A stretch of 64,000 nucleotides of DNA from Limonium bicolor (Eukaryota; Streptophyta; Magnoliopsida; Caryophyllales; Plumbaginaceae): assembly GCA_023374045.1 (NCBI GenBank), contig CM041776.1, positions 144,835,296 through 144,899,295 on the forward strand. Reading direction: 5' to 3'. Position 1 is the stretch's first letter. Each line of letters opens with the position of its first letter. Under the pieces are notes generated by a model that saw nothing but the letters and a program-made list of their open reading frames with translations, did no database searches and was not told the origin of the DNA. Shown piece after piece: positions 782 through 63,624 of the stretch. The translations under genes were made by a program, and so were the position numbers.

Positions 782-3686
782 CTGAAATAGGAAAAAGAAG
801 AGAAAGGGTGGCCCCCAGGGGCTCAGCACCTTTGCTGGTATGGTAATCCCGCAGCCCGCATGCTACCGGGCCACGCACAACTAATTGTCGTCTTAGCATG
901 CGGTAGATTATATTTGAATCATGCATGTAAACTATCAACACACAACACATAACATTCCACCACAATGGGCTCAACAAACAAATAACACATCCATACTTGA
1001 TAAGTCACTCATTGTGTTCATTAACCCTAGAGGGTTCCCTCTAGTGGAGCTACTTCCTTAATACGACACTTACCCAATAATCGGGTTATCCATAAACGTC
1101 TCTTTTATAAACTGGGATTCATATCCATGATCCACATACACCACATAACAACACTTTTCACGTTTCAACGTGCACATAACATAACATCGCAAATAACTTT
1201 TGCAGTACATCAACAACACATAACAAAATGGGCACGGATCTCTCTAGGAACCGCCCCAAACATAGTTAGTTCACAGGGAGAGCCTAGAGGACGCTGTCAA
1301 ACTCATGCTAAGCTCATTTACATAACTCGTTACCATCCTGTTAGACGAACGGATAACTTAACATAAAGATGGATCGGATTTAGTGACCTGAACACAACAT
1401 TCATAATCCCCAAAAGACGTGAGTCAAGAGCCTTGGTTAAGCTCAGGGGTGATTGAAGACCAATGAAGGAAAACAACCAACAGAGAGGAAGCTGAAGAAA
1501 CTGTATACAACAACTCCCAAACAACGCGCGACCGGAACATACCGGATTCCTCACCCCCCATAATATATAAATAATCACAATAAAGACTCCGCTATGGAAC
1601 CTATCACACCAGCACACAATACAGTATTACAATTGAGTTTATCACACAAAAGAGGGTCATACATTCACAGCAACATCTCACACAACATCACACAACCAAC
1701 TCACGCATAGCCGTGGTTAGAACGTTCCTTAGGCCGGAAACGTTATTACCGGATACCGTTCTCTTACGTTTACCTAATAGTGGTTAACTAGCCTTTCATG
1801 AGCATTCGTGGTTTCCGGTATCGACACGTAAACACACAACAACAATAACGACTGTAAACTCGTTTCATGATTTATCTTATAACGTGGCAAACATACAGAA
1901 AAACACATTGGCATACAAGCCGGTGTAATCCGGTAGGACACAGGTTGTAAGAAAACCATACCTGTCACCGGGGTTTTACTCTAACGTGCCATCACATGTT
2001 CCTCGTAACATCTTTGAAAAACTGGTAACATTACATTTACTTTTATTAACATTGGGGTAACATGATTGATTAAAGTCTAATGCTCATAACTTATCCCCGT
2101 TAACTAGTTAAATAACTTCACATTTTTAACTTGTTTTACTTTTACATTTTAATACAACTTTTCCCCCACTAAATTGTCATTATAACTCACTTAACATGTC
2201 CTTAACAATCTTATAACATCATTACTTAATAATCCCCACCATCCTATAACCTTAAACAATGTTTTTGGTCCATACAGCGCCTTGTCCGAACTTGTGTCCG
2301 GACTTCCCAAGTTCGGACACTGTTCGAGGCTCAAATGGGTGTAAACAGATGACCGTCCGAACATGCGTCCGAGCTTCCCAAGTTCGGACGCTATTCGAGG
2401 CCAAAAGAGGATATAGAGATAGGCGTGTCCGAACGTCCAAATTCAGACGGTAGTTCGGACACTGGTCGAGGCTTAGATCACTTACGCGCAACAAGGCATG
2501 TCCGAACGTCCACGTTCGGACGGTAGTTCAGACGTGCCAAAACCTTCATTTTCTATACCTTTAAACACTTACTCATTTCTTGCCAAAATGCCAACACTTA
2601 TAGTATTTCCCCCTTAGGTTTATAGCATGTTCCCACACATTATTTAGCCCACCAAAAATACTTCATGTCCTTCCAAGAATTTTCTTCACAAGTTTAAACA
2701 TCTTCCTCACCTAAACATCATTTCCTCCTTGTACATCAACATTACCTAAACCTTAACAAACTCCTCCAAGACTTTAGTACATCCTTAAACACCCATTGGA
2801 TTTCTTGAACTTCCAAGATAATGCCTAAATCCTTCTTGCCTTCTAAAACACCTTAACACACCTTTCTTTCCTTAGTAAAACACTTAATCATTCTCAGCAC
2901 TTCCAAACTCACCAAAACTCTTTTTAAACACTTAAAACTTCTTATACATTTTCTAAATTTTGACATGGGTTCTTCTAGCACATTGCTATACCAAAGCACA
3001 TAGCTTTCACCATTAGACATTCAAGAACACCTAAAATCCATCAAGAGTATTCTCACACATAAACACTTAGGTTTTCACCCTTTCACAACCAGAAACACTT
3101 AATCACTTAATACACATTCCTTACACACAAACATATTGTTTTTCCTCCTTTAACCATCCAAGACACTCATCTTTACAAAGAATGTTCTTTACACACATCT
3201 AAATCCTTAAACTACACTACTTCACAATATAGTGCATAAACTTAAATTGCTTGACAGTTAGGTCCTTAAATAACATGGCTCGCAGGCCCTTAAATGCATT
3301 AAACTTAAACACTGAATTTCCCACATATATATTGCCTTTAACCTGCAAATACACTCAACATCACATATGCCTTTTAATAATCTCCTTAAAACAATTCACT
3401 AGCTCTTTTCCCATTGGCTCCTTAGGTATTTTATTAAGCAAATCAAGCTTATTTTTCCTAAGGCATTTAAACTACATTTAGATAGTTTGTTTACCTCTTC
3501 TCCTTCACAAATTTTTCATTGTAACCCCTTTCTACTTCTTTGGTAGAAACCGGCAAGGCTTTGATTGCTTGTCAAACTTCTAATCAATGTACAAGCAAGG
3601 TAATGAGTATTCAAGCTTCATGCTTAAACTCATTGTAAACCCTAGGTTATATATATTGTCTTAACACATTAGGATAGTTGTCTTAC
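782..3686 (-). other. Putative LTR leader intron in B1
   Basis: On the minus strand CAAG/GTAAGA (donor, GT at 3686-3685) is followed about 2.9 kb later by a long pyrimidine run and TTTCAG/GTAC (acceptor, CAG at 784-782). The same two sites recur at equivalent places in C, A, E and B2. The island 2281-2536 lies inside. Splicing is inferred from sequence only. Confidence 0.45.
2281..2536. repeat. GTCCGAAC/GTTCGGAC inverted-repeat island in B1
   Basis: About 255 bp carry a dozen half-sites of the form GTCCGAAC, GTCCGGAC, GTTCGGAC and GTCCGAGC in both orientations, in an otherwise AT-rich LTR that is poor in CpG. Halves are spaced a few to about 20 bases apart and can form 7-9 bp stems. TTCGAGGC recurs at the unit boundaries, giving an approximate 65-bp higher-order period. 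Confidence 0.9.
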
Positions 3687-4229
3687 CTTGGAATAAAAAG
3701 AGAGCTTGAATAAGCATCAAGAGAGGACTCCTCCTTGTCTTTTAATGATAGAAATGGAACTATGGAAAACAAGAGGAGACACATTAATGGTGAATTTTCA
3801 GACATGTAATAAAAATGAAGGAAATGTTGTTTTCTTTGGTTTTTCCTTACCTTGTAGCAAAGGTGATCAACAAGGCATAAAAATATAGACTCAAGCTCCT
3901 TCCATGGAAGTTCTCCTTGGCACCGAAATGGTGGTTTTGAAGATTTGAAAAGAGGGAAATGAAGAGCTTGCTCCAACTAGAAGAATAGTGGTCTTAAAAT
4001 TGGATTTGGATCTTGGAGCTAGAAGATACAAGCATTCAAGGATGGAGATGATATGTTTTTTCTGTAGCAAAAATGATTTCAAGAAGGGAGGATGGAGAAG
4101 GCTACGGTGGTGAGTGAAGGAAATAAGAGAATGAGGTGAGAGAGTACTCTTGTTTAGATATTTATGTAATAAAGGAGAATAATACTTTACTTTATGTCTT
4201 CCTTTCTTTAATTGATTTGCAAATGGTGG

Positions 4230-4236
4230 TGACTCA
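4230..4236 (-). promoter_or_regulatory. TGACTCA motif within a GGTGACTCACC palindrome (B1)
   Basis: TGACTCA, the core bound by GCN4-class bZIP proteins, sits just downstream, on the minus strand, of a TATA-like block (AATATAAGG at about 4250). The same arrangement occurs at 26553-26559, 49323-49329 and 60942-60948. A role in transcription is inferred from conservation and position. Confidence 0.5.
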
Positions 4237-4959
4237 CCTTACAAAAACCGGCCCCCTTATATTACTTAGGGGTGTTTTGGTCTTTGTTGACCAATTAACT
4301 TACTTATATTGACTAATGTGATAAACTAGCATATTTTAGTTACTATTCACAAAAAACAAGGCACATACTTGTGAAATTTTTGATTTCCCATTGATTTAGA
4401 CTTCCAAATGTGATACTAAGTAGTACACATGTTAATTAAAGAGTAATTATGGACATTTAGCCATTCAAAACCCATTTACAAGACAATTTTTCAAAAATGT
4501 GCTTTAAGACTCCTTAAAGCACATTTTGTGTTTTAACTTGTTTTCAAGCTTGGTTTTCTTTAGTAATTGATTTTATATGTTCATTAACATATAATTAAGG
4601 TATAGGTATGACCTTTAGGTCTTATACAAATTTATCCCAAGCTTAGAGCACATTTTTGCCCATATTGACTTTAAGGTATTTATTTGTGTTTTATTTGGTT
4701 TAATTGTCTACCAAGGTTTCCTAAGGACTTAATTAGCCTTATTAAATCATAATTGAATATTATTTAGTCTTGGTAGGTTCTTTGGGTCCTAACCAAGTTC
4801 ACTCCAAGCTTAGAGCATATTTTTGCTCAAGCTGTGTCTTAGTGCTTTGTTGCGTTTTACTATGGTTTAAATTGTTCACTGTTGTTTCTAAGGTACTTTT
4901 TAGCCTTTAAATACCATATTTTAATGTCTAAACAACATATCAAGGTTTGGGGTATTTCA

Positions 4960-6086: not shown

Positions 6087-6196
6087 TGTCCTAACATGTG
6101 TCCGAACATTGAAGTTCGGACATCATACGCCGGAGGATTTTTCAGACTCTCGAATTAGGTCCGAACATGCAAGGTCGGACGCATGTTCGGACGGCC
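6087..6196. repeat. GTCCGAAC inverted-repeat island in T1
   Basis: A compact cluster of GTCCGAAC, GTTCGGAC and GGTCGGAC half-sites in both orientations. It is the shortest such island among the T-family LTRs. Confidence 0.85.
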
Positions 6197-13253: not shown

Positions 13254-13258
13254 CTTTT

Positions 13259-14595
13259 TGTAACGCCCCTATCGCTAATACTGTCATTACCGTCCAATCT
13301 TCTTATACAATCCAGACTCACGCAGCGGATACTGACATACTCAATGGGGGTGATACAATGCCGTTAGCCACCCACGTGACTAACCAGGCTGCTACTACTA
13401 CTACATACAGCATCGGTCTGATGGACCGGAATGTCCGAGTACTACACACTTACAATACATACTCCAATTACCAAATCAAATACTAGAACTTCCCATTCAT
13501 TACAATACTCCATAAGTTCAATACAATATAATACACCGAGTTTACTAAGATCCTTATACAAATACAACACCTCTTTCAATTTCATGGATACACATTAAGA
13601 GTCTACCCACTACCCATTCCTCACAAACTACTTACTTTTTAAGTACAAGGGGTCTGCCACTTAGTACGCTTCTACATTCTACTTCTAACTATCCAAGTGT
13701 AGCCACCGGTCTCTTCCTTGACCATATCCGCTTCGGGTACCTGCACACTAAAAACGTCCCCCCTAGGGGGTCAGCTTACGCTGAATATGATAACCGCATA
13801 CCCCGCGTACTAGTGAGGGTACGCCGACCACTTAGTCGAATGCATGCAGTTCATTTTATTCATGCATACATGCATGCATGCTTTCATACATAATACTACA
13901 ATACTTTACAAGGAATACATACATACATTTCAATACATACAAGTAGTCCATACAAGCCAATTTATACTTACTTACCTTTCCTGAAATGCGCATACACAAT
14001 ACATACACCATACATATTCCATACATACACAATACATGTTAGCTCCTTTTTGTCCACCCGGGTTAATCGGGTGGAGATTACTCTTTTACTCGTTACACAA
14101 TACTTACGCATACATACTCATACTTTACTTACTTACTTACTTACTCAAGTCAAGTCGTCGGGACCTCCGGCCCGGGGACTACTCTGTCCCACCACCGGGA
14201 TTTACTTGGTTCACCAATCCAGGATGCTACCCATTTAAGGGGTTTGGGCCGTGGACCAGTTTAAGAACCAGGAATCGGATCCAACCTCTTGTGTCTCCTC
14301 ATCCTCACGCGTGGCCGAAGCTATATCGGACTTCTACTCATTCCAATTTACTTATTACTTACGTTAGAAGTTAGGTAGTTAGGAATTAGTAGAAGTCACA
14401 CATCCAAGCCACAATAATACAATACATTGCTCATATACACATCCATACGAAATACGATACAATACACAAGTACATTACAAGGTACAAATACACTTCATCT
14501 TCATCCACATATTTCATGAATTATACAAACTAGTGTTCAAGACAATAAATATCAAGAACACATAATTCAAGCACAAGTAAGTGCAATATAGTCCG
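13259..14595 (-). mobile_element. Element A, 5' LTR, segment 1
   Basis: It starts TGTAACGCCCC next to the primer site and is cut at 14595 by element L; the LTR resumes at 22313 and 49885. Near 13741 it contains the acceptor-like GTGCAG/GTACC preceded by a CCCCC/GGGGG hairpin. It also holds ACTT and ACAT microsatellites (13860-13880, 14125-14150). It is a diverged relative of 56395-57556 in E. Confidence 0.88.
14591..14595. repeat. Target-site duplication GTCCG (left copy, L)
   Basis: Repeated exactly at 22308-22312. Confidence 0.95.
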
Positions 14596-16350
14596 TGTGA
14601 GCCTCGATTTTAAACCCTATCCTGTGTTTATTAAAGCTGATTAGGATCTAACCGGGTTTTAGGTCCACTTATAACCTAAGATTAATAACTATGTCATATA
14701 ACAATAATTATTAAAACCTAAGCTAGCTCACTGGAACCTATTATGAGTCGCCACCTAATTTAACCTAGGTCAAATTAGGAAAGGAGAGTTCAGGTTCGAG
14801 GGCTTGATATTCGACTTAATTAGGGTTCAAATTGCTTTCATTACCCTTCCTAGGCCGTTTTTCCTCTACTTGGTTTATTTACGGCTTATTACGAGTCGTC
14901 TTAACCTAAGTGCGCATTCTTCGTTTTTTTTTTGTGTTTTTTAGCATTTTTTGACATAAAATTAAGTGAAATTAAAAGCTACCCTAAACTAGGGTCGGAG
15001 GCAGAATTAGGTCCAATTTCGTTTACGTCGTAGCCACGGACACCATGTCCGAGACCACGGCCCCCAGTTACCTAATTATACAGAAAAATCGAATTTAGGA
15101 AAAAGAAAAAAAAACAAAGTTTGAAAAGTCCGGGGCCATGGACAGGCTGTCCGTGCCCGGACATTATTTTAGAAAACCTAAATTGAAAATTTTAAATCCC
15201 GCCGCCGTCCGTGGGCGTCCGAGGCCACGGACAACCCGTCCGTGTCCCGGACCATAGGTCCGAGATCCCGGACAACCCACGGACAGGGGTTTTTATGGTG
15301 GTTCCCGAAGGTGTTTCGGCTCAAATTTATGCACGTGTAGCCTGAAAGTGTACAATTCGTTAGTAATTGAAAGATTGCAGTTTGAAGTCGAATTATGTAC
15401 GAAATTGACAAACAAGTAACAAGGCAGAAACAAAAGTAATTAGCAATATAGAAGCGTAAAAAGGTTAGTTTGAACCTAAAATTTGACAGAGAGTTAATAA
15501 GGTCGTGGAGAGTTAGAAAAGTAGAATTGCAACCTGTTTTACCTTCAGATTCGTGGTGTTTCTTCACGTCGGGATTCTTCAAAGGCTCGTTGATGGCGGA
15601 TCCAGAAGAACTTTGAACCGAGCTTCTGACTCCTTGCTGTTCTTGATGTTCTTCACGTTTTGGTGCTGTTTTGGTGAGGGTTTGATGATGGATGATGTTG
15701 TGGAGTTGAAAAATGTGTTTTGGTGTTGATTTCGGTGAGATTTCGGTGTTCGACTGTGGCTCTGGAGTTCAAACGTGGAGAGAGAGAGACGGCTGCCTTC
15801 TTTGAGAGTCTAGGGTTCTTGAGGTTCTCCTTTGATCATGGGATAAGGTTCCTTATATAGGCTTCCTTAAAGATAGAAAAATCCGGTAAAAACCGAGATT
15901 TACCGACGTTTTAGCTCAAAGGCTTCCAAAAGGAATTTGATTATGAATTTCACACATGGGTAAAGGATGATATTTCTGATTTTTCTAAAGTGGAATCGAA
16001 TTTTTTGGATATTGGAATATTTTTAAATTCAATTTCTCGTCAGATTCAATCAGAAATTGCTAGAAAATTATTGGAAATTCGAAAAATCAAAATTCCAACG
16101 CCATTATGCTTCAGATGTCATCCTCTATCATGGGTTAAATTTCAAAGCATTTGGAATTGATTTGACCCTTATTTGGAGGAGAGAGAAAGCCTATAGGGGG
16201 CTTACGAGCCTTGAAAAATTACGAAAATGCCCCTGGAGATGACTAAGCTGTCCCTAGTACTCTGAAATGTGCCGATCGAACTGGGAACCCTCGCTACTAG
16301 CCTATTAGTAGAGACTCTCTTCCGGGGGGGTTGAAATTTTGGGTATAACA
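14596..16350 (-). mobile_element. Element L, 3' LTR
   Basis: Starts TGTGAGCCTCG and ends GGGTATAACA on the plus strand. It aligns throughout with 20545-22307 with few substitutions and some single-base indels, many in homopolymers. It contains a TATATAAGG box on the minus strand at 15851-15859 and a GC-rich inverted-repeat island at 15031-15290. Confidence 0.93.
15031..15290. repeat. CCACGGAC/GTCCGTGG island in the L 3' LTR
   Basis: Repeated half-sites CCACGGAC, GTCCGTG, GTCCGAG, CCCGGAC and GTCCGGG in both orientations. It is the L-family counterpart of the islands in the other LTRs, and the right LTR has the same island at 20977-21236. Confidence 0.88.
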
Positions 16351-16454: not shown

Positions 16455-16735
16455 ACAAGTTACGTCGAGCTATTCTAAGGCGCTGACTACCTATGAGTAA
16501 AGTGGAAGGGTGTCGAGCGGTTCTAAAGCGTCGACCACCTAAAGGTAATAATGAAGTAATGTCAGACTATTCTAAGGCATTGACTACCTGTAATGATGAT
16601 ATGATGTCAAGCTATTCTAAGGCATTGACTACCTGTAATGAATGAGATGATGTCAAGCTATTCTAAGGCGTTGACTACCTATAATGAATGAGATGATGTC
16701 AAGCTATTCTGAGGCGTTGACTACCTATCAGTGAT
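16455..16735 (-). repeat. Tandem repeat 1 in element L (unit about 46-48 bp, 6 copies)
   Basis: The unit is recognised by AGCTATTCTAAGGC...TTGACTACCT, starting near 16469, 16517, 16565, 16610, 16656 and 16701. The two copies nearest the LTR side are the most diverged and the later ones almost identical, as expected for recent local amplification. It lies in what would be the 3' untranslated region. Confidence 0.88.
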
Positions 16736-16799
16736 TGAAAAATGGTGTTGGGTCGAGTTCTTCTATTCGGGTGAGTTCTGGTGCTCTAGTGAGTTCTGC

Positions 16800-17095
16800 G
16801 GCTCTGGTGAATCTGAATCTTTGGCTGAGAATCTGCATCTCTGAAGAGTCTGTATCTTTGGCTGAGAATCTGCATCTCTGAAGAGTCTGTATTTTGGCTG
16901 AGAATCTGTATCTTTGAAGAATCTGTATCTTCAGCTGAGAATCTGTATCTCTGATCGGGTGAGAATCTGTATCTCTGAAGAATCTGTATCTTCGGGCGAG
17001 AATCTGTATCTGTGAAGAATCTGTATCTTCGGGGTGAGAATCTGTATCTCTGAAGAATCTGTACCTTCGGCTGAGAATCTGTATCCCTGAATTGT
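16800..17095 (-). repeat. Tandem repeat 2 in element L (unit about 38 bp, about 7-8 copies)
   Basis: The units alternate GAGAATCTGTATCTCTGAAG and AATCTGTATCTTCGGCT-like halves, so a subrepeat near 19 bp underlies the 38-bp period. It lies next to tandem repeat 1 in the 3' untranslated part of L. Confidence 0.88.
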
Positions 17096-17099
17096 GACG

Positions 17100-20541: not shown

Positions 20542-20976
20542 GTCTGTGAGCCTCGATTTTAAACCCTATCCTGTGTTTATTAAAGTTGATTAGGATCTAA
20601 CCGGGTTTAGGTCCACTTATACCCTAAGATTAATAACTATGTCATAACAATAATTATTAAAACCTAAGCTAGCTCACTGGAACCTATTATGAGTCGCCAC
20701 CTAATTTTAGCCTAGGTCAAATTAGGAAAGGAGAGTTCGGGTTCGGGGGCTTGATATTCGACTTAATTAGGGTTCAAATTGCTTTCATTACCCTTCCTAG
20801 GTCGTTTTCCTCTACTTGGTTTATTTACGGCTTATTACGAGTCGTTTTAACCTAAGTGCGCAAGCTTCTGTTTTTTTTTTGTGTTTTTTAGCATTTTTTG
20901 ACAGAAAATTAAAGTGATATTAAAAGCTACCTAAACTAGGGTTTCGAAGGCAGAATTAGGTCAAATTTCGTTTACG

Positions 20977-21236
20977 TCCGTAGCCACGGACACCATGTCC
21001 GAGACCACGGACCCCAGTTAACCTAGTTATACAGAAAAGTCGAATTTGAGGAAAAACAAAAGTTTGAAAAGTCCGGGCCACGGACAGGCTGTCCGTGGGC
21101 CCGGACATTATTTTAGAAAACCTAAATTTGAAAATTTTAAAATCCCGCCGCCGTCCGTGGGCGTCCGAGGCCACGGACAACCCGTCCGTGGTCCCGGACC
21201 ATAGGTCGTCCGAGATCCTGGACAACCCACGGACAG
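20977..21236. repeat. CCACGGAC/GTCCGTGG island in the L 5' LTR
   Basis: Copy of 15031-15290 with small indels. Confidence 0.88.
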
Positions 21237-21805: not shown

Positions 21806-21814
21806 CCTTATATA
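21806..21814 (-). promoter_or_regulatory. TATA box of element L (5' LTR)
   Basis: TATATAAGG on the minus strand, with a pyrimidine-rich stretch starting about 55 bases downstream. It is conserved in the other LTR at 15851-15859. Confidence 0.7.
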
Positions 21815-26552: not shown

Positions 26553-26559
26553 TGACTCA
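26553..26559 (-). promoter_or_regulatory. TGACTCA motif in the C 3' LTR
   Basis: GGTGACTCACC palindrome downstream, on the minus strand, of a TTATTTAATAAAGG block. Same layout as at 4230, 49323 and 60942. Confidence 0.5.
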
Positions 26560-45214: not shown

Positions 45215-45508
45215 CTTTTTGTAACACCCCTATCTCAATCCAAATGTGGTTTCGCATCTTAACAACATATATATACATGTCACAGCGGATTCAATACACT
45301 CCAGGACCTTGCCACGGTCTGACTGAAAGAATATACCGAACATTAGTACATACAAATCCAAATACATATCCTTCTTACAATTCCCTCACATCCTATAATT
45401 ACTAACTCAAATTGCCATACGAGTGTACATGCACAACTCGTAGGCCACACTTAACCCGTAACGCTGGTACCCCATCTACTCTCGCGATGGCCGCCTCCTG
45501 ACGTTCAC

Positions 45509-48500
45509 CTGTAGTAAAAACAGCCCCAAAGGGGGTCAGCACGAATGCTGGTACGATCCTCTCATGGCCCCCAAGCTAACGTGGCTACGACGACTAATTG
45601 TCGAAAGCATGGAGGTTGATTAGATGCACAACATAATAGAAGGTGCAATAAACAAAAACCAATTATGAACAATCAAAGTTCAAACACAATGAACGACTTA
45701 AATGCGTTCCTTAATTAGTGAGTCAATACTTCACTCCTTAAGTTACGTTTCCTCTCAATCATAGTCCATCCTTATCTTACCTCAATCTTAGTCTTATCTT
45801 AGTCTTTGAAAACAACCATCCTTTAAAAAGGAATGGATTTAGCTTACCTCAGTCTTATAATGCAAACCATCCTTTAAATAGGAATGGTTGCAACTTATCT
45901 CAAACCTTATCTTAATCTTAGAATACAAACCACTCTTTAAATAGAAATGATTGTATCTTACCTCAATGTTTATTTTTGTCGGGTCAAAAGCAACCCTAGC
46001 CAATGAGCTATTAACTCCATTGGTTGAATAACAACATATTTTATAATTTAGGATTTAGGTGATCCTACGCACCATCTTAATGCCTCCCTTGGACTGTATG
46101 TCCAATGTAGCTGAGCCGGCAACCGACCCTAGGCAACAAGTCCGAAGACAACTCCTTAAGCGAAGTGTGGATCTGCTTTAGATACCGACCCCCTATTCTT
46201 AGCATGCATGACCGGAGTCAGTCCCGAGTTCCTCACTCCCCCTTAAGTTCCAGTTAGTAGAAGTCTCAAGACAATGTTTGTTGGTTAACTCTTTTGGTTT
46301 ATAACAAACTAATATTAGGGAGCGTTCCTTAGTCTCACTCAATTCCTTACTAAACGTTGGTTAGTAAGTTCTCACGGTAAGTTGTGTAGTTTTCAAACAT
46401 CACACACAATACAATAAACATAATGTTCCGGTTCCATGCTTTATCTTGTTTAGTGAGCACACAAAAACAGATAGCACACAAGCCGAGGGACCTCGTTAGC
46501 AAGCAGGTCACAAGAAGAACTGTACCGTTCACCGTTGGTCGTTCGGTTGCTTACTCTCCTCCGGAGTCCAAACTCTCAAGCCCTAAAACATTCATTCAGT
46601 TTTAGGTTGTTAATCACTTAACTTAATTCAACTTATTAGCTTACTTAACCCATAATGATTCCCCACCTAACGCCTCTTAAGTTATACAACTTATTCTTAA
46701 ACCTAAACTTAAACTTTAAGTTTATACTTAACATAATCCCTTAGGCCTTTATACCTCTAATCATCAATGCCCTCTTAACGGGGTACCATTTATACCTCTA
46801 ACTTTCTTAGGGTTTCTTTCTTTTTTTTCATCTTTAGGGTCGACCGACCTTACCGACCGACCTTACCCAAGGTCGGTCCATTCCAGAACTTATTACCGTT
46901 TGAAAATTTTACCCCGACCGACCTTGCAAGTCCGGTCCCCTAGGTCGGTCCATTCCCGAGAGTTTCCCGTGGGATATTTAGGCCCGACTGACCTTGTCAA
47001 GGTCGGTCCCAAGTTCGGTTCATTCCAGAGACTCAATTCGTACACAAAATACAAGCCCGACCGAACTTGTAAGTCCGGTCCCCAAGTTCGGTCGATTCCA
47101 GAAACTCTTTCCGATAGTGTAAATTGAGCTCGACCGACCTTGCAGGTCCGGTCCCTAAGGTCGGTCGGCTCTAGAACCTTGTTTCTAAATTCCCATTTGA
47201 CTCCAAAATACTCCACAAGTTCCCCCATGTGTCCTAATACCACTTAGGCACTTAAACTCACCTTAGAACTTCCACCAAACTCTCCAAAACAATTTCCAAA
47301 GATCTTCTTAAACATTCACTCAATCCTTAAAACTCCTAACACTTAGGACTTATTTCCTTACATTTCCAACTTGTAACCTTACCAAACTTCAACCAACCCA
47401 AGTGTTCCCTCCTTAACAGTTTGAGCACTTCATAGACATCATCTTTTCCATCTTCAGCTCATTTACCAAAACTTCCTCAAGTCACCTCGCATATCCATGC
47501 ACCAATTCCTCTCTTTTCCATTTATTACTCATCATTCCTAAACTCTTGGACACGCCTAAACATTTCTTCTATCCTCTTAGCACCTTAACCTTGTTCTTCT
47601 TTACCTTGACCTTCCTACACCCTCGTTAGACACCTACATCCCTTTTACACAATTTACTCACCATTCTCGTGATCTTACTCTCTAGTACATTCCTAGTCGA
47701 TTTCCTCGACAATCGACAACATTCTCCTTCAATCTTCACTCCCATCACCTAAGTCCACTCATTACCATCTAAACTAAAACCTTATTGTTCCACCACTAAC
47801 ATCCTCTTCACTTACGCAGCTTCCCAAACTCTCATTGTTATATTCCCTAGTTCATAACTAAATCACCTTAAAGCATTATACATCTTTTCATCCAAATTTT
47901 TGCACAAGTTTAACCATTACTCATACTATGACTTTGGTGTGTTCAATACACCCACCTAAATTCTAATTTCCTCATAGACACTTCTAGGTCATTCAAAACC
48001 TCAAGAACTCCTTAGTTAACTCATTTCCACTCAAATTCCTCAGGATGATCCCTAGTGAATCCTAGGGCATCTTAACTCACCACTACCACTTAAACACTTT
48101 GTTTTCTACTCAAATTTCGCCATAGCTTCTCTAGTATATTATCATGCCCAAATGCATTTTTTTCCTCATTCAAACCATCTCACACACATCAAGTTCTTTC
48201 TCATCATATTTTATCACCCAAACCAACTCATTCACAACAAACTCAATATATTGCAATAATCTTAAATTGCATAGCACTAAGGCTCTTAAATGACATGGCT
48301 CTTAGGCCCTTAAATAACTTAAACTTAAACACTGAATTTCCCACATATAAAAGCTTTCAACCTGCAAATACACCCATCATCTCATAGTAGTTATAATGCT
48401 CTTAAAATCCATCTTAAACTTATATTACTAACTTATTTCTATTGGCTCCTTAGTCACAAGTTCACAAGCTTGTTTAAATTCCTTTCCTAGGTTATATAAC

Positions 48501-48780
48501 CCATTACCTAATGTAGCTTAAAGCTAAATTGGTACTTATCTAAATACCATCCCTTAAAACTTAAACCACCATTAGGTAAGCATTTTACCTTGTTTTCCCA
48601 AGCTTATCTTAACTTCCTCCTTAGACCTTTTCCTTGGGAATCTCGGCCACCATCTTAACTTCCCTTGCCAATGTTCTAATCAATACACAATGACTCTCAT
48701 GAGTGCTAAATAATACACTAACCTTAAGGAGTAAACCCTAGGTGAAAATGTGTTTTAAGGTATTAAATTGAATGCTTTAC
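45509..48780 (-). other. Putative LTR leader intron in the C 5' LTR
   Basis: On the minus strand CCAAG/GTAAAGC at 48780 and GTGCTGAC-hairpin-TTTTTACTACAG/GTG at 45509 bracket about 3.3 kb. CTGAC fits a branch point, and a CCCC/GGGG hairpin separates it from the pyrimidine run. The alternative donor is at 48944. Confidence 0.5.
46838..47168. repeat. GACCGACC/GGTCGGTC island in the C 5' LTR
   Basis: Copy of 24080-24412. Here the halves are slightly better matched, with GGTCGGTCGG near 47159. Confidence 0.9.
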
Positions 48781-49322
48781 CTTGGATTCTCAAAACAAGC
48801 TTGGATATGAATCAAGTAGGACCTCCTCTAGCCTAGGAGAATAGAATCAAGCTAGAACAATGGATAAAACAAGGCTCCATGAGAAGGTAATTTTCGGTCA
48901 TGAAGAAGAAGTGGTGGACACAGGTTTTCTTACATTTTCATTACCTTGGATGAATGGAGAACCAAATGGGCTCTTCAAACTTGATTTTCCTCCATTAATG
49001 GATTTTTCTCTTGGCACCTAAATGGAGCTTTGAATGATTTGAAAAGATAGAAAGGATGGCCTTGACTTAACTAAGACAAATATGCAATTTGTTTTGGATT
49101 GGAGCTTGGAGTTGCATTTGGCAAGTGAATGAGGGTGAGGAGCCATGGATGGAGCAGCACTCTCGGTTTTGGAATAGAGAGAAGAAGATAAACCAATGGA
49201 AGAAGAAGAGAATGAGAAGGAAGAGGAGAGAAGTAAGCTAAATGAGATTATTTTTCTAAAAAGGTGAATAGTTACCTTACTTTATTTCCCTCTCTTTTTC
49301 CAACTTAGATAACATGTTGTGG

Positions 49323-49329
49323 TGACTCA
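49323..49329 (-). promoter_or_regulatory. TGACTCA motif in the C 5' LTR
   Basis: Within the GGTGACTCACC palindrome, between the TATA-like block and the CT-rich leader on the minus strand. Confidence 0.5.
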
Positions 49330-49879
49330 CCACCCTTAGAAAACCGGCCCCTTTATTAATAAGGCTAGTCATGGTCTTTGGTTGACCAGCGTATTGACTT
49401 ATGTTGACTAAAACTTAAACTAGTCACTATTTGGCACTATTCACTAATTAGTGCACATATTCATGAAATTTTTGGTTTCCCATTGATTTAGGCTTCATAA
49501 TGTGATACTAATTAGTACACATGTTGATTAAGGTGTAATCATGGGAATTTAGCCACTCAAAACTCAATTCTATGACAATTTCTCAAAAAGGTGCTTTAAG
49601 GAGTCTTAAAGCACATTTTGTGTTTAAGCTTGTTTTGAGCTTGGTTTTCTTTGGTAATTGATTTAAAATGTCCATTGACATATTAATAAGGTCTTATATG
49701 GTATTTTGGTGCTAATAAAAGTCACTCCAAGCTTAGAGCACGTTTTTGCCAAATTGCCCTTAGGCATTTTCTTGTTTTTCCTTGGTTTAAATTGTCTACC
49801 AACCTCTCTAAGGCATATTTTAGCCTTACCACATCATATATTGATGTTTACTTAACATACTTAGGTTTGGGGTATTTCA

Positions 49880-52404
49880 TTGTTCCTCGGTCCTTACTTG
49901 TTCCTCGAGTCTTATTCTCGAACCAATGACTACATGCCAAATGGTTCAATTAATACTATGTATTACAATACATATATAATTACTACTCCTATACTTACCC
50001 CGTTATCCCATTGTTTCGGTTTAACTTAATGTTCTTAAACTTACAACTTTCTTAATTACTTCTCAAACTTGCTTACACTTCTTAGGACCTTAAAAAGTCA
50101 CCAAACAAGGCCTTAACAACTTCTAAAACAATCTCCAATCAATCCCCCAAGTTTAGAAGCCCTTAAAAAATTTTTTTTTGCTCTCTGGTCCAGACCTCCC
50201 CACAGGGGCGGTCCGAGACAGAAACGAATCCGTCCAGCAGAATTCGACTGGACCTCCCCACAGGGGCGGTCCATAGGGGCGGTCCACAAACAAACCCTGT
50301 TTTTAAAAGTGTTTTTCTACTCATTTTGGACTCCAAATTCACCCTAATATTTTCCCACTTATTCCACAATATTTCCACATGTTTAAACACCTTAAAACAT
50401 GCACTAAGCCTCTCCAAATCATTGGTTAAACACTTACTCCAATTCTTGCTCAAATTCACAAACATCAATTCTTACATTTTGCACTTTGCACACTAGTGCA
50501 CTTCTAACTTTCTCTTGCTAGTTTCCTACCTCCTACCAACTCACTTAATAACCATTCCAATCCTCTATACCATTTGCAATAACTATACTCAAGTTCTTCA
50601 TTCATTTCCAAGGTTATGCACACCAACTTTCTTCCTAAAATTCAAGGTACTAATACACTGTTTTGCTACAGATTTTTGTTCCCACTTCTACCATTCAATA
50701 CTCCCTCTATCAATACCATTCCTAGCATCCTAATTGCAATACCTTCCACTCAAGTTCTCGCCATTATCTAGCTCCATTCAAAATCTGTTACAACATGGTT
50801 AGTCACTCACAACTTCTACCAAAACACACCTAGTTATTGTCTAGGTTGTTCCCCTCCTTACACATCTAGTTCCTCTAATTTCCATACAAATTTGGGCATA
50901 GTTTCCCCTAAAATTTCTATATTCTCACCCCATCATTTTCACTCACATTCTCATTCATCTCAACTGTTTATAACCTACAACAATACATAATTCTCCAACA
51001 TCAATACTACACATCAAACACTCACTAAATCCTGCACATTCACCATTTCCTTCCTTAAGGTTTAACAAGTTTTCCAATGTCTTTTAAAGCTTTAAAACTG
51101 TTTGGTTCTCTTACACATTACACTACTACTCATTACCTTTTACAATACACATTTTAAACTACTAAAATCTGTTACAACAACATACAAAAATTGTACAGCC
51201 ATTCATTATACACATTCTAAATTAAACTAAACCCTTAATCATCTTTAAAGCTTTAAGGTAAGTTTTAGGGTTTAGGAATTGACATTACCTTGCAAGTGAG
51301 TAGATGGGATTTAGAATAGCACAAGAGCAATATTTTTACTCCTCCAAGAATGCCAAAATCGGTGGAACAAAAGGCATAGGAGCTCACAACTTAGAAATCT
51401 CTATTTGGGAATAAGAGCAAGAAAAGGTAATGTTTTTTGGATTTTTTTTACCTTAAACCAAAGAGGTGAAGAAGGGCCTTCTAATGGTGGTCTTCAAGCT
51501 CCAAACCAAGAATACCCATGGAGATGAAAATGCTTGTTTTCGAATTTTGGAAAGAGAGGAATACTCTCTTGATGAGAGGAAGACAATGGTATAATTTTTG
51601 TAATTTTGGTGGAGGTTCAAGGGGTTAACAAGAGGAGAGAAGATGAGGTTTTGTGAGTTCTTCATTTTCTCCATTGTTGTCGCATGGGGTAGAAGAAAGA
51701 ATTGAGAGAGTGAAGATGGGGCTGCTGTATGTGAAGGTGTGGGGAAATAGAGGAGAGAGAGTAGTAAAGTAAGGTAAGTAGTAAAGTAATGTTACTTTTT
51801 GCTTTTTAATGTATTTGTCTTTTGCAAATGAAAAGAGAATTGAGAGTGTGTGTAAGAGAGGGCATGAATCGGCTGACACACACAGCCCACATAGGTTTTA
51901 AAATTCTATTTACAATATTGGACACACTAGTTTGAGTTATTTATGTTTTTACCCCACAACTTCCCGTTTTGACAGTTTTTACTATTTTCTCGTTTTATTG
52001 ATTTTATTGGTTCTAAACCGTCACTAATGTTTATTAATGACTATTTAGTTGACCATAATTGTTACGAGCCTATTTGACCCGCTTAAAGTCACGTTTTCCC
52101 GGTTTCCTCGAAAACGCGCTTAAGGTTCGTTTGTGTTTTTAATCCATTTAAGAATCCGTTTTCTTCGGGAATTTGTTTCTACATGTTATTTAGGCATAAT
52201 TAAGCCTTTAGAATCCATATAATACGCTTACCGAGGTCTCATACCTCCTATGGTCATTTACGCCTATTTAGCGTTTTTCGCTTTTAAGCGTTTCTTTATT
52301 TCTTTTGATTTATTTTTCCTTACCAATATTACCTAGGCACCATTAGGCCCTTAAATACCTATTAGATTAATTTTAATCGCTATATTTAAGTTCGGGGTAT
52401 TTCA
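49880..52404 (-). mobile_element. Element A, 5' LTR, segment 3
   Basis: It begins with the TTGTT duplication of C and continues the LTR broken at 22436, ending GTTCGGGGTATTTCA at 52404. The last 600 bases match 1-423 plus 4965-5137. On the minus strand it holds a donor-like GCAAG/GTAATG at 51288 and the island at 50189-50288. Joined, the three segments give an LTR near 4.0 kb. Confidence 0.9.
50189..50288. repeat. GGTCC/GGACC island in element A's 5' LTR
   Basis: Short cluster: GGTCCAGACCTCCCCACAG then GGGGCGGTCC, repeated with GACTGGACC, plus a further GGGGCGGTCC. It is the smallest island, but equivalent in position to the others (between donor 51288 and acceptor 13741). Confidence 0.8.
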
Positions 52405-57556: not shown

Positions 57557-57956
57557 TGTAACACCCCTACTACGCACTTACCAATACTTGAAATCGCAGT
57601 GGAATTAAACAACTAAATAATAACTAAATGATTCGGTGCTACAACGCCGTTAACCACCCACGTGGTCAATAAGGCAGAATAAATACAAGCGTACCGGTCT
57701 GATGATCAGACTCCCGAGCATAGAACTAATAACCCTTAATACATAAACAATACCGAGTTTGTAACTACATCCATAACTGTAAACTGTACACCACTACTGT
57801 CACTGTAAACTGACAACGACCGTCATTGTAATACAAACGGTACCAAAATATATCGCCACGGGAGCACAGGCGCATCCCGGGCTCAACATCCAAAAATAAC
57901 CAAAAGTATTCCTGCAGCCTAGAATCTATAGCCATTCCGCTTCCTCGATCCTCATC

Positions 57957-60327
57957 CTGCAGTAAAAATATGGAGCCCCCGAGGGGGTCAGCAACCCTTG
58001 GCTGGTATGGTTAACGCGCAGCCCATCGGCTACCGGGATACGCGCAACTAATTGTCATGATGACATGGCATTCATTTTGAACATACAACATATATATATC
58101 ACAGCAAGAATATTGCACAACATCATCACACATAACATACAAGAACGAATCCTTTTAGGAAGCGAACCAACACAGTTAGATCCCATGGAGAGCCTAGAGA
58201 ATGTTTCCAAACCCATGCTAAGCTCGTTACATAACTCGTTACCGTCCTGTTAGATTGAACGGATAACTTAACACAAGGTGCCTCGGATATAGTAACCCAA
58301 GCACACCGAACAAAACATAGTATGCCCCTGTGGCCCGACGTGAGTCAGTAAAATAGCCTTGGTTAAGCTAAAGGGGAGGTTGGAAACCAAATTGGAAAAA
58401 CAACCATAACATACAGAGAGAATCGAACCGGTTATGACATCGACTTCCATACTCACACGCGTGGCCGGAACAGACCGGACTCCTCACTTCCCCCGTTAGC
58501 ACTTGTTAGAAGTACAACATTGAACTCAATGAACAAATCACAACTATTGGTTAAGTCTTGTTAGACACACACAAGGGAAGAGAGAGTCACACTTAACAAT
58601 ATAATAATATTTAACAACAGTAAACTCATTACATGACTTAAGTCTTACAAGGTCATAACAAACAGAAAAACATACAACACACAAGCCGGTGTTAACCGGT
58701 AGGCAACAGACTGCAAGAAAATCATACCTTGGTCCTTGCTTCGACTGGTTTCCACCGTAGGTCACTCCTATACATGATTAATAACGTCGGTCAATTTACT
58801 TACTTAACTTCAATTTTACTAAGTATTTTACATGGTTATATGACATGTTTTAATGCCTAAACTTATCCTTGTTTACCTACAATATACCCCCTAGGGTTAA
58901 CTACTTAAGCCACTCTTTTTATTTTTTTTTACAGGTTTGGTCCGACCGACCTTACACAAGGTCGGTCCATTCCAGAACATATTACCGTCAAAAATTCTAC
59001 TCCGACCGACCTTGCAAGTTCGGTCACAAGTTCGATCTATTCCCGAAAGTTTCTTTCCTTTGAAAATTCAGGCCCGACCGATCTTGGCAAGTCCGGTCGC
59101 AAGATCGGTCGATTCCCGAGACTCACTTACGTACAAAAATTTAGACATGACCGAACTTGTAAGTCCGGTCCCAAGGTCGGTCTATTCCAGAGACTCAAAC
59201 CGTACTAAAAATCCATGCCCGACCGACCTTGCAAGTCCGGTCCCCAAGGTCGGTCCATTCCAGAGACCATTTCTCGCAGGGTAAACTGGGCTCGACCGAC
59301 CTTGCAGGTCCGGTCCCCAAGGTCGGTCTGCTCCAGACCCTTGTTTTTAAATGCCCATTTAACTCCAAACTTCACCTCATATATCCTAGTATGTTCTAAC
59401 CTTATTTGGGCACTTCAAACACACCTTAAGACCTCCATTAAACTCCTTAAATCATTCATCAAAACCTCCTCAAGCATTACACAAATTCTTATAAAAAGGT
59501 TGGCACATGCAATACTTTTCCCTAAGTTTCTATGTGGTGTTTCATACCTAGAACTTCCACTATTCCCAAATGTTTTCTCACCACTACAACATCATCTCCC
59601 AAACATCTTTTCTTAACAACCTAAACTTCTAGTTGATGTCTAAGTCCTTTTTGTTTCCTAGAACATTTAAGACATTACTTTTCCTCTAGTAAAACACCTA
59701 AAACATTTCTAACACTTCCTAGTTCACCAAATCTTGTTTAAACACTTATATTTTCTTGTACATTACCTAAATTTGGACATGAACTCTCCTAGAACATTAC
59801 TAAGCCAAAACACATTGTTTTCACCATTAAACAATCAAGAACACTAAAATCCATCAAGAACATTCTTATACACAAAACTTCACTCATTTATCACTACATC
59901 ACAATATAGTGCATAATTTAAATTGCTTGGCACTTAGGCCCTTAAATAGCATAAACCTTAAACACTGAATTTCCACAATATATTTGCCTTTGACCTGCAA
60001 ATACACCCAACAATACATATGCCTTTTACTAAGCCCTTGAGAGCATTTTTCTAAGTCATTTACCATTGGCTCCTTAAGTAGTTTTAATAAGCAATATAAG
60101 CTCATTTCTCTTAAGACATTATAAGCTACATTAGGTTAGCATATTTACCTCTTTTCCTCACAAACGTCTTTCTTGTTTCCTTGTTCAAAAATCGGTAAGG
60201 GTGTTTGATTTCTTGTCAACTTCTAAACAATATACAAATAATGAAATGAGTATACAAGCCTTATGCTTCACTCATTGTAAACCCTAGATACATCGATTGT
60301 CTTAGAACATTTAGATGATTGTTTTAC
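57957..60327 (-). other. Putative LTR leader intron in B2
   Basis: On the minus strand CCAAG/GTAAAAC at 60327 and CTGAC-hairpin-ATTTTTACTGCAG/G at 57957. The island 58937-59334 lies inside. Confidence 0.45.
58937..59334. repeat. GACCGACC/GGTCGGTC island in B2
   Basis: Six units near 65 bp, each with CGACCGACCTTG, AGTCCGGTC and GGTCGGTC, separated by ATTCCAGAG-type spacers. Closely related in layout to the C islands. Confidence 0.9.
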
Positions 60328-60941
60328 CTTGGATATGAAAGAGAGTTTGGATATGTAGCAAGAGAGGACTCCACCAAGCCCTTGGAAGATTCAAATGAAG
60401 CTAGAACAGCATAGGGCACCATTAATGGCGGACAACATACAAACATGAAGGAATGTTATTTTCTTTGAGTTTCAGATTCAAAGAAGCATTAGAGCTTTTT
60501 GGTGAGCTCATCTTTCCTTGAAAAGATCTTACATTGAAAGTGAAGCTTTCTTTTTCTTCCTTTACAATTGCTTTTTTGGTCTTGCAAGAATATAGTGAAG
60601 ATGAGCTCAAGCTCCTCCCATGGAGATTCCTCTTGACCGAAAGGAGCTCTTGGAATTTTAGAAGATAGGAATGAAGAGCTTGGCAAGACAAGAGAATGGT
60701 GGTCTTTGTTTTTGATTTGAATGAGCTAGGAATAATGATAATGGAAGTTGGTGTTGGAGTTGATACTATTGCAAAACCGTGAATGGAGAGCAAGAAGGAG
60801 GTAGAAGAGAGGTTGGAGACGTGGGAAATGAAGAGGGAAATAAGAGAATGAAGATAAGTAGCTAGTTTTTGATATTTAAAGTAAAAGTAAATAGTGATTT
60901 GCTTTATTAATTTTACTTACTTGATAACTAACAAGGGGGGA

Positions 60942-60948
60942 TGACTCA
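60942..60948 (-). promoter_or_regulatory. TGACTCA motif in B2
   Basis: Same relative place as at 4230; here the flanking palindrome is imperfect (ATGACTCACCC). Confidence 0.45.
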
Positions 60949-61478
60949 CCCTTATAAAAACTGGCCCCCATTAAGTAGGAAGGGTGTTTTAGTCTTTGTT
61001 GACCAATTATCACACTTATATTGACATATGTTATAAACTTGGTTAATTTGGTTACTATTCACAAAAACAAGGCACATTGTTGAGAAATTTTTGATTTCCC
61101 ATTGATTTAGACTTCCTAATGTGATACTAAGTAGTACACATGTTACTTAAAGAGTAATGATGGACATTTAGCCATTCAAAACTCATTTACAAGACAATTT
61201 TCAAAAATGTGCTTTAATTAACTTGTTTTCAAGCTTGGTTTTCTTTGGTAATTGGTTTAATATGTTTTATTAATATATAAATAAGGTCTTGGTAAGCTCA
61301 CTAGGTCTTAACCAAGCTTATCCTAAGCTTAGAGCACATTTTGGCCTTTATTGACCTTAAGGTATTTACTTATGTTTTCTATGGTTTAAATTGTTTACTA
61401 ATGTTTCTAAGACTCTTTTTAGTCTTTATATACCATATTTAGATGTTTAAACAACATACTAAGGTTTGGGGTATTTCA

Positions 61479-63624
61479 TTCATTAATTTCATGAATTACA
61501 CAAACTGTGAGTTAAGATAAACATTCGACAAGGAACAATATCATGTATTCACAAGTAAGCATAATAAATCCGATTCGTGTGTATTATCTTAATTAGGTGA
61601 TCAATTAGCACACAAACACACAAATCAGAGTAGCCAAGGTAGCATACAGGGCATGAGAAGTTCATACCGTTCACCGTTGACTTGGACTCACCGACTTCCC
61701 TTCGGTGTTCGACTTTCGAATCCTACCACATACATGTGATCGAGCGGTTAATTAACTATAATTAACTTAACTCGTTTTATCTTTTACGGTTCCGATCTTA
61801 TACTTACTATGTCTTTACAATTATTACACTTACACATTGTCTACTTACTCTTCATTACTTTTAAAATTTGTTTATACCCTTAATGACCATTAACATCATT
61901 AATCAAGTACTAATTATCTTATACTATCATTACCATCCTTTACCTTTACTTAAAAGCCACATTTTAAATTAATTTTTAACTTTCAGGGTTGGTCTGGGAC
62001 CTTGTCCGGGTCTTAAGTCCCGGACCACCCTGTGGTCTGAATTCTCGAACAGATTTTACTAGTGGTTCGGGTCATTATACATAAGGTAAGTCCCAGACTA
62101 GTGGCCTTGCAAACTCTCGAGAAAAATTTCAATGTGGTTCGGGTCCTTGTACCCTAGTCAACTCCCGGACCAGGAGTTTGGTAGACTTTTGGACGTTTTT
62201 CATGGGGTGGTCCGGGTCCTTGTATGGGACCTATGTCCCGAACCACCCATTACTTGCACTCTCGGCCTAATATATTGGTCCGGGAATTAGTCCTGGACTT
62301 AAGTCCCGGAGCCTGCTACAATTTCTATAGTTTTGACATTTTCAAAATCTGTTACATTCCTCTCTTTGCCTAATTAATTCCCCATTGTTCCTGCACTTAA
62401 TCCCACATATTCGAGCATCTAATTAGCCTCCTAAACATATCTAAATCCATTACTAACTCATTACTTATTTTCATACTAATTCACACACATTATTTTCTAA
62501 GTTTCCTTTCAGCACCTACATTATCTCTTCTTAGTCTAGTTACGCTACAGATTTTGGTTCCCTCATCTACCATTCTTGGTTTCCCTTCCTAATGCCATTT
62601 CTAAGGTTTACAATGCATTATCTATCACTCTTAATCTACCCACAACTTAGCTCCTTTAAAAATCTGTTTCAAAGTGTTTTCCTACCTAGTTTCTAGCTCT
62701 TAAGTGTTCTAGTTTCCTAGGTAAAATTTGACATAGTCTCCCCTAAATTTTAAACATTCTCACCACATGTTTTACTCACATATTGTCATTTTTCAAACCT
62801 GTTCAACACACATATTACAACATACACACTAAACACTAAACACTCATTTTAATTCCTGCACACCCACAATTTCTTTCCTTAAGGTTTATACAAGTTTTTA
62901 ATCATCTTTAGAAGCTTTAAAACAGTTGGGTTCTCTTCCACATTATGCTACTACTCAAGACCATTTACAATACTCATTCTAAGCTTTAAAAATCTGTTAC
63001 ACAAAATATACACAAGGTACACAAGGTGAGTGCAGTTTACCTTGATTTCTTTCTAGCTTTCTTCTTTCTTCTTTCTTCTTTCCTTCTTCCTTCCTTTCCT
63101 TTCCTCTCTTCTTGACCCCGGTAATGGAGTTCCAATGTTCTAATGCTACAGCCCAATGATATACCACCAATTTAATTCAAACTAACCCTTAAATCATCTT
63201 AAAGCTTTAAGGTATGTTTTTAGGGTTTAGGAAAAGGCCTTACCTTGCAAGGGTGTAGATGGAGTTTAGAACAGCAACAAGGCAAGATTTCCACTCCACA
63301 AAAGAATCCAAAAATCCGGTGGGAACAAAGAATAAGAGGCTCCAAACTTAGAAATTTCTTATTTAGCGAATGGGAGTTAAAAATGCTAGTTTTTCGAATT
63401 TCTTTTTACCTTAGACCAACAAGGTGAAGGAGGAGCATCTAATGGTGGTCTTCATCTTCAAAAACAAGAACACCCATGGAGATGAACATGGGTATTTTCG
63501 GATTTGGAAAAGAGGGAAATGTTCTCCTTAATGAGAGGAATCCAATGGTACTATTTTTGTATTTTTTGGAGAAGATTTAAGGGTTCAACAAGGGGAGAGA
63601 AGGGAGAGTGTTGGATGGGTTATG
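61479..63624 (-). mobile_element. Element E LTR, segment 2
   Basis: It begins with the TTCAT duplication and resumes E. The stretch 61585-61680 matches 22313-22410 of A, and 63410-63530 matches 51455-51560. It has a donor-like GCAAG/GTAAGG at 63243 (minus) and the island 61985-62312. A CTTT/CTTC-rich microsatellite at 63050-63112 stands in the leader region. F truncates it at 63624. Confidence 0.85.
61985..62312. repeat. GTCCCGGACC/GGTCCGGGTC island in E
   Basis: About five units containing GGTCCGGGTCCTTGT followed by AAGTCCCGGACCA or variants. Inverted halves are 5-8 bp with CTTGT/TTAAG between. It lies between donor 63243 and acceptor 56853. Confidence 0.87.

Follow-up and report, generated by a model that had tools for sequence, protein, structure and literature searches.

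Recombination is known to swap long terminal repeats (LTRs) between retrotransposon families, for example in soybean, yielding mosaic elements. The LTRs of Sireviruses carry clustered CGG-CCG palindromes with element-specific words, the "RM boxes," which form LTR CpG islands and sit 200-400 bp into the LTR; the original description reports them to be confined to Sireviruses and missing from the other Ty1/copia elements that its authors studied (Bousios et al., 2010; PMC2829016). The palindrome-rich cis-region of maize Sireviruses is described as a small-RNA hot spot (cited through PMC10760457 and PMC5311732). The Del LTRs of grasses have variable CpG islands, with none reported in the authors' eudicot group (Cruz et al., 2014; PMC4029996), and the targets of VANC proteins in VANDAL elements are said to form, often, tandem repeats that vary between related elements (PMC5735166). 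Here we describe a related pattern in Limonium bicolor: islands of GTCCG/CGGAC half-sites in the LTRs of a 64,000-nt stretch of contig CM041776.1 (the window), within a 2.92-Gb genome. The window is made up of nested LTR retrotransposons, and the island pattern is real and genome-wide.

A sequence-only reading of the window had listed 13 islands as CpG-rich, inverted-repeat patches with family-specific words in unrelated LTR families. Using its own island coordinates and 500 dinucleotide shuffles per island, we found the islands to be real: GTCCG/CGGAC or GACCG/CGGTC exceeded the maximum of the shuffles in 12 of 13, the sole failure being 50189-50288 (GACCG 3, shuffle maximum 3). The other two properties held for most islands only. 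Exact 8-nt inverted repeats outnumbered those of every shuffle in 10 islands (the exceptions being 15031, 50189 and 61985), and the CpG observed/expected ratio was 1.10-1.40 inside versus 0.41-0.91 outside in 11 of 13, with weak values at 50189 (0.69 vs. 0.44) and 61985 (0.63 vs. 0.43). Island GC content was 0.45-0.64. The islands total 3,988 of the 64,000 nt (6.2% of the window), and 82 of the window's 96 stems of at least 11 nt (GC at least 0.4) start inside or within 20 nt of them, none of these at the island at 15031. In the window, CGGAC/GTCCG is the top-ranking of 512 5-mer pairs both by over-representation (observed/expected 2.28) and by clustering. A scan for at least four half-sites returned 14 clusters, 13 within the listed islands and one (four sites) outside them at 29126-29209; it did not pick up 61985-62312, and 12 window clusters hold at least five half-sites each. 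The stretch 27343-28010, listed as a single island, is corrected to two clusters (27344-27514 and 27893-28009) flanking a TATA box.

The half-site also stands out in a genome sample of 20 randomly drawn 10-kb stretches (200 kb) on four contigs. There CGGAC/GTCCG led all 512 pairs in over-representation (1.89), and in clustering only ATATA and AAAAA ranked above it. Fifteen clusters of at least five half-sites lay in 12 of the 20 stretches (50 shuffles: mean 0.14, maximum 1), an array density of very roughly 75 per Mb, and they brought further island words (GTCCGACC, GTCCGGAC, GTCCGTTT and GTCCGGCT). Among 17 words of the same letters, CGGWC yielded the most clusters (15 in the 200 kb), the overlapping CCGGW yielding 10. 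Within one set of 10 LTRs, 118 of 188 CGG triplets inside islands are CGGWC, versus 23 of 236 in the remainder. At locus L025 (7245-8834) a GTCCGTTT/CGGAC cluster neighbors an open stretch encoding a plant mobile domain (PF10536), and the array may occur outside ordinary gag-pol LTR elements too. No related loci were found in viral contigs, and five isolated matches of the hairpin pattern in prokaryote genomes were treated as background.

The array is laid out most regularly in the LTRs that we label C, E1, B and B2, where the unit is a tandem repeat of ~72 bp that contains a hairpin on the half-site GWCCG/CGGWC. Type I islands occur in C and E1. Element C1 has a 5' LTR (33123-35354, plus strand) with an island of six units at 34091-34467 (plus) and a 3' LTR (39953-42188, plus) with the second copy at 40923-41301 (plus); the solo LTR C2 (30230-32257, plus; target duplication TCTTA) has its island at 31199-31377 (plus), and the solo LTR C3 (5226-7671, plus; target duplication CCAAA), of a family abundant in the genome, has two units at 6088-6192 (plus). 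E1, also solo (424-4959, minus; identified by its ends and flanks, with target duplication ACCGA), has the word GTCCGAAC in four units of ~72 bp at 2284-2521 (minus), and is 60-71% identical to LTR B2 in blocks. Type II islands, with the word GACCGACC, lie in the 3' LTR of element B (22437-27109, minus; island 24080-24412, minus), in its 5' LTR (45220-49879, minus, primer site at 45204; second island copy of five units, 46842-47166, minus) and in the solo LTR B2 (57557-61478, minus; target duplication TTCAT; six units, 58940-59328, minus). Unit periods are 69-75 bp in 19 of 20 cases and 60 bp in one, and despite this near-constant period the spacers of B and C resemble each other no more than shuffled spacers do (0.451 vs. 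0.450).

The arms of the units are 11 bp long (for example GTCCGAACTTG...CAAGTTCGGAC and GACCGACCTTG...CAAGGTCGGTC) and enclose another half-site. In the outer arms of 26 units, chosen by eye from the arrays, 258 of 286 positions pair; re-dealing the letters within each LTR gave a mean of 249.8 and reached 258 in 18 of 5,000 trials. Two-sided changes occur at positions 2 (T-A/A-T), 7 (A-T/C-G/T-A), 9 (T-A/A-T) and 11 (C-G/G-C) and at none of positions 1, 3, 4, 5, 6, 8 and 10. Across 12 island families, one cluster each, the agreement between forward- and reverse-arm flanks was 0.33 versus 0.07 when permuted (0 of 5,000), with almost no agreement at L032 1354-1629 (0.04) and window 27893-28009 (0.00). 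At the level of sequence, then, the array, its half-site, its near-constant spacing and the symmetry of its arms through two-sided changes are established.

Pairing of this kind is what selection on base pairing would produce if the islands acted as RNA, as transcribed hairpins for packaging or translation or as small-RNA decoys or templates. We rank this RNA-level function second and consider it rather improbable. Besides the excess of paired arm positions, it would account for the mean predicted folding energy, lower in the island than in the remaining LTR in 10 of 10 LTRs tested (single outside windows can be equally extreme, and the lowest window of E1 lies outside its island), and it would suit the pyrimidine-rich, leader-like stretch that C, B, E1, B2 and D each have 0.5-2.1 kb upstream of their islands. 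The reports of maize Sirevirus palindromes as small-RNA hot spots point the same way (PMC5311732; PMC10760457). However, RNA pairing leaves unexplained why the same five letters are fixed across families, and the 28 unpaired arm positions include four G-U and four C-A, thus no RNA wobble excess on the sense strand. The At-type islands described below lie upstream of the TATA box, and the window has no matches to Rfam families.

The carriers are not as unrelated as had been claimed. C1, C2 and C3 are related; the LTRs of A, B and C1 are in each case the two ends of a single element; and B, B2, E1 and D cannot be called unrelated because their LTR ends are alike (a common start, TGAAATACCCC, in all four and a common end, GGTGTTACA, in B, B2 and E1). 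What distinguishes the islands is that they do not always follow these relationships. In addition to the type I and type II islands of the window, we assigned loci L018, L032 (4612-4945) and L021 to type II and L015, L024 and L014 to a type III. L014, together with its left neighbor L034, is a B2-type LTR (left part 78% over 924 and 82% over 856 nt, right part 79% over 1,420 nt); its right-hand match restarts at the island edge, and L034 has no match to the L015 backbone. The L014 island, in contrast, matches that of L015 (71% over 436 nt, E=2e-48) and at the same settings has no match to that of B2; Smith-Waterman scores were 219 to L015 versus 60 to B2. Under lax scoring L014 and B2 do align through the island at 66.5%, and the score of 60 stands above spacer shuffles (0 of 300), which indicates that their two island types are distant relatives. 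L021 is the reciprocal case: its backbone is of the L015 type (75% over 556 nt, 69% over 399 and 66% over 971), and its island matches that of B2 (70% over 433 nt, E=5e-39; Smith-Waterman 203 vs. 41 to L015), again with no match to the L015 island at the same settings. Spacer shuffles reached the real score in 0 of 300 for both L014-L015 and L021-B2 and in 1 of 300 for L014-L024.

A further sign of exchange comes from B2 itself, whose island tract groups with B against the remaining LTR. In an alignment of B5, B2 and E1, sites outside the tract group B2 with E1 (704 B2=E1 vs. 310 B5=B2), while the island-containing tract gives 232 (B5=B2) versus 88 (B2=E1), with a run sum of 144 versus at most 29 in 2,000 permutations; faster change of E1 in that tract would contribute to this signal. 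The At-type LTR L020 has an island that resembles type I but is inverted, scoring 95 antisense and 58 sense against C1a. Spacer shuffles reached its score in 30 of 300 for C1a, 2 of 300 for E1 and 125 of 300 for C2, so its homology is not secure; an inverted island exchange is a tentative reading. Taken together, the islands look like homologous, exchangeable cassettes that sit on the "wrong" backbone at no fewer than two loci (L014 and L021), the exchanged piece being the palindrome array with its near flanks, ~0.3-0.6 kb.

Common descent of islands can also be traced where backbones differ. Between the E1 and C2 LTRs, the island was the only similarity that BLAST found (best E=2e-26), flank scores lying within those of shuffles. 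Sense-antisense alignment served as a control, since it carries the same palindromic words as sense-sense; the sense-sense score was higher for C2-E1 (110 vs. 38), C1-E1 (90 vs. 44), B2-E1 (53 vs. 37) and L014-B2 (60 vs. 16) and was not higher for B2-C1 (28 vs. 36) and C1-C3 (55 vs. 65). Shuffling the spacers only, the real score was reached in 0 of 500 for C2-E1 and 3 of 500 for B2-E1, and in 500 of 500 for B2-C1a, B5-C1a and B2-C2. These outcomes link the E1 island to both C and B2 and leave B and C without a direct link. The triplet CTC stands exactly 10 nt before the arm in 5 of 8 spacers of C, 3 of 3 of E1 and 5 of 9 of B/B2, unmatched in 2,000 register-shuffled controls. In the C, E1, B/B2, F (L015, L021, L024) and L014 LTRs, the islands can be aligned in one shared orientation, spacers included, which rules out separate invention of each word in these groups. 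Homology of islands and their discordance with backbones are thereby demonstrated for the aligned sequences.

The sequence-only reading had proposed repeated replacement under a shared constraint, to be refuted if all islands proved to stem from one captured sequence. Such a single origin largely applies to the C, E1, B/B2, F and L014 islands; it does not extend to the A-type, At-type, D and D' islands, where no island homology with the others came to light and the half-site alone is shared. The constraint, the common core, the family-specific words and, in L014 and L021, direct replacement were borne out, while independent re-invention of words was not. Shared descent and tandem structure are also what one would expect if the arrays were a functionless by-product of replication, in which template switching or unequal exchange make the repeats and even them out and the half-site is inherited from an ancestral array; such copying predicts both arm symmetry and array growth. 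We place this third and hold it to be somewhat less probable still than an RNA role. A-type, At-type and Sirevirus arrays have the half-site too, with no detectable island homology; none of the 16 other words made of its letters yields as many clusters as CGGWC; and the islands remain CpG-rich although their CpGs decay as elsewhere.

The claim that the island word changes faster than the rest of the LTR fits E1-B2 (identity 0.43 in the island vs. 0.67) and is reversed for B5-B2 (0.70 vs. 0.56) and C1-C2 (0.62 vs. 0.55); island identity is also lower for B5-E1 and C1-C3 and near equal for C2-C3. In three LTR pairs pooled, substitutions numbered 30 of 963 in islands and 204 of 7,614 in the remainder (p=0.40), and a mutation hot spot is not supported by these pairs, although the A pair alone was higher (13 of 251 vs. 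33 of 1,487, p=0.017). CpG loss between paired LTRs was likewise equal, islands having lost 9 of 78 CpGs and the remaining sequence 23 of 183 (p=1.0), which does not support a protected CpG island. Equal loss in inserted copies, together with the high CpG of the islands, suggests that CpG is renewed in the replicating lineage, by selection or through fresh arrays. The same equality of loss speaks against the islands being methylation-related, that is, arrays kept unmethylated or serving as methylation targets, with the words incidental. The elevated CpG ratio in 11 of 13 islands would suit that explanation, as would the precedent of variable CpG islands in Del LTRs of grasses (PMC4029996); the words are, however, far more specific than CpG, and we regard it as very unlikely, the least probable of the explanations considered here.

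In the At-type and B LTRs, the island stands close to a putative promoter. An At-type LTR-like insertion (27110-28490, plus; start TGATAAGTG at 27109, TATA at 27688) has an island with the word GTCCGGAT upstream of its TATA box (27344-27514, plus) and a second cluster downstream (27893-28009, plus) in which the words of the forward and reverse arms disagree. In five of five At-type LTRs (this one, L020, L028, L031 and L032 at 1354), the island starts 229-262 nt into the LTR and the TATA follows 57-225 nt later, yet the five use four different words: GTCCGGAT, GTCCGAAC, GTCCGGAC (twice) and GTCCGTGG. Domains next to them are Retrotrans_gag (L028) and RT_RNaseH, H2C2 and rve (L031), a gypsy-type order. 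In both B LTRs, TATAAATGG lies 44 nt past the island in the LTR sense.

We favor reading the islands as putative cis-regulatory cassettes, the likeliest function being an enhancer array for a host factor, to which we would give about an even chance. A dimeric or multimeric host DNA-binding protein would read the half-sites, and the array would serve as an enhancer or upstream activator. Template switching among co-packaged RNAs, or gene conversion, would carry islands from one element to another, and half-site selection would keep CpG-rich words in the replicating lineage while inserted copies lose their CpGs at the usual pace; equal CpG decay with a higher island CpG content fits renewal or selection in the active lineage. 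Of the shared constraint proposed earlier (host factor, RNA folding or methylation), the constraint itself is supported, and sequence alone does not decide among the three. LBD transcription factors were considered as the reader, but the literature searched gave no supporting paper, and we do not claim them.

Several observations weigh against an enhancer array. Simple binding of half-sites does not need arms that pair beyond the half-site, and a test on every half-site pair, outer and inner together, detects no covariation within arrays (0.650 vs. 0.652, a value reached in 2,856 of 5,000 trials). The near-fixed period may stem in part from duplication. The best TATA of element A (CTATATAAG) is upstream of its island, and no promoter was located in the C, E1 and B2 LTRs. 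Descent is not uniformly secure either, as spacer shuffles match the real score in 32 of 500 for C1a-E1, 57 of 500 for C3-E1 and 500 of 500 for B5-E1. Finally, D and D', both cut fragments, scarcely show the pattern: the D island (50189-50288, minus; GGACCGCCCC/GGGGAGGTCC) is weak and not above shuffles, and the weak D' island (61985-62312, minus; GTCCCGGACC-like) has GTCCG 5 versus a shuffle maximum of 4, its 8-nt inverted repeats not exceeding shuffles.

The reader of the half-sites could instead be encoded by the elements themselves, for example as an anti-silencing protein with which the words co-evolve. The VANC proteins of Arabidopsis VANDAL elements are the precedent (PMC5735166). Against this, lineages whose coding regions differ all use one half-site, arrays are also borne by solo or non-coding families (A and C3), and the scanned pieces of the window yielded no such protein; we think it quite unlikely. 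For a host factor, a wider form of the enhancer reading can be put forward, though doubtfully: one conserved plant factor for CGGWC dyads might be exploited by Ty1/copia Sireviruses, chromovirus-type gypsy and At-type gypsy elements, the array itself being mobile and perhaps invertible.

As to the setting of these islands, element C1 (33123-42188) is a Ty3/gypsy element in which Retrotrans_gag, RVP_2, RVT_1 and SH3_Tf2-1 were found (RVT_1 and SH3_Tf2-1 above cut-off), with a sub-threshold chromodomain (Chromo, 22.7 bits against a cut-off of 25.1). Plants named among the matches listed for the window's reverse transcriptase (120 of 8,000) are Tanacetum, Trifolium, Vitis, Drosera, Sesamum, Cajanus, Cucumis and Xanthoceras, all of which we take to be eudicots. 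Element A has its 3' LTR at 14596-16350 (minus) and its 5' LTR at 20545-22307 (minus), with islands at 15031-15290 (minus; word GTCCGTGG/CCACGGAC; GTCCG 13 vs. a shuffle maximum of 5, 8-nt inverted repeats not above shuffles) and, as a second copy, at 20976-21236 (minus). Its inner region showed no Pfam domain above cut-off in the 9 of 40 open stretches scanned, and at 16545-17091 it has tandem repeats with periods of 46, 37 and 17 bp. A is inserted in an F-type LTR, whose parts at 13259-14595 and 22308-22405 flank it; 13734-14595 is 74% identical to L015 over 883 nt and 22308-22405 continues the match at 88%. The two flanks (14595/22308) overlap by ~5 nt on L015 (7338-7342), as a 5-bp target duplication predicts. 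An A-type backbone with other islands was dropped as a candidate, the apparent link having come from the F-type fragment that encloses A.

At least 40 near-identical copies (99-100%) of the C3 island occur in the genome, drawn from 1,574 first-look candidates. They are often paired 3.8-4.0 kb apart, and four follow each other at 3.87-kb steps on genome contig C1 (364525890-364537621); the C3 family is a short, recently active element, probably without coding sequence, whose LTRs form tandem arrays. A 388-nt segment, the beginning of the B LTR, is present on both sides of the At-type insertion (26722-27109 and 28491-28876, 97% identity), and no simple target duplication accounts for the copies. 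A primer-site-like TGGTATCAGAGC, presumably of the initiator-Met type, lies on the minus strand at 13243 and 45204, adjoining the F-type and B LTR ends, and likewise for C1 at 35360; that of element A differs from it.

LTRs are usually thought to diverge freely, yet here a half-site of 5 bp persists, with its dyad symmetry and spacing, amid changing surroundings, and arrays turn up on different element backbones. If the arrays are enhancers, they would be the binding site of a widely exploited plant regulator, would explain a possible joint switching-on of several families in one genome, and would offer a ready bait for DAP-seq or yeast one-hybrid screens; the "Sirevirus-specific" palindromes would then exemplify a strategy used more broadly by retrotransposons. 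Should the palindromes instead chiefly supply small-RNA pathways, a common half-site would allow joint silencing across lineages.

The kind of structure is already known from the Sirevirus RM palindromes, and what appears to be new is its presence on Ty3/gypsy carriers, the shared half-site and the swapping of cassettes. None of these three was found in the literature searched, which left most subscription papers outside. LTR swapping likewise yields mosaic elements, but the piece exchanged here is the array with its near flanks and not the whole LTR. Del islands are reported in monocots only, while the plants named among our listed reverse-transcriptase matches are presumably eudicots. Otherwise the 5' CpG islands of Del (Tekay) are similar in belonging to gypsy LTRs, there of chromoviruses, and in being CpG-rich, lineage-specific patches that vary in length and sequence; unlike our islands, they come with no mention of a palindrome, inverted repeat or tandem repeat in the text covered by a term search (PMC4029996). 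VANC target repeats resemble the islands in being short motifs repeated in tandem, in lying in non-coding parts of mobile elements and in differing from one related family to the next, but they belong to DNA transposons with an element-encoded reader whose binding leads to loss of methylation, whereas here one half-site runs across lineages.

The closest likeness is to the Sireviruses. Both systems have clustered palindromes with a CGG-CCG core, in many copies and with element-specific words, and the place of the At-type islands (229-262 nt in, before the TATA) and of the B island (44 nt before TATAAATGG) agrees with that of the RM boxes; the A island, whose best TATA is upstream, does not. 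CGGWC, defined on the window, is contained in nine of 13 published Sirevirus words, for which a crude one-in-eight chance over 12 CGG words gives 1e-6 with the relatedness of words ignored. The maize Sirevirus palindromes (CACCGGACNNNGTCCGGTG) also contain the CGGWC half-site, change rapidly in sequence and are predicted to form hairpins, although the small-RNA case concerns copia elements only, in maize. The carriers here, in contrast, are Ty3/gypsy (C1 and, by the domains of their neighbors, At-type LTRs) and not Ty1/copia Sireviruses, the units of C, E1 and B are long (11-bp arms, ~72-bp period), and the islands are exchanged across backbones.

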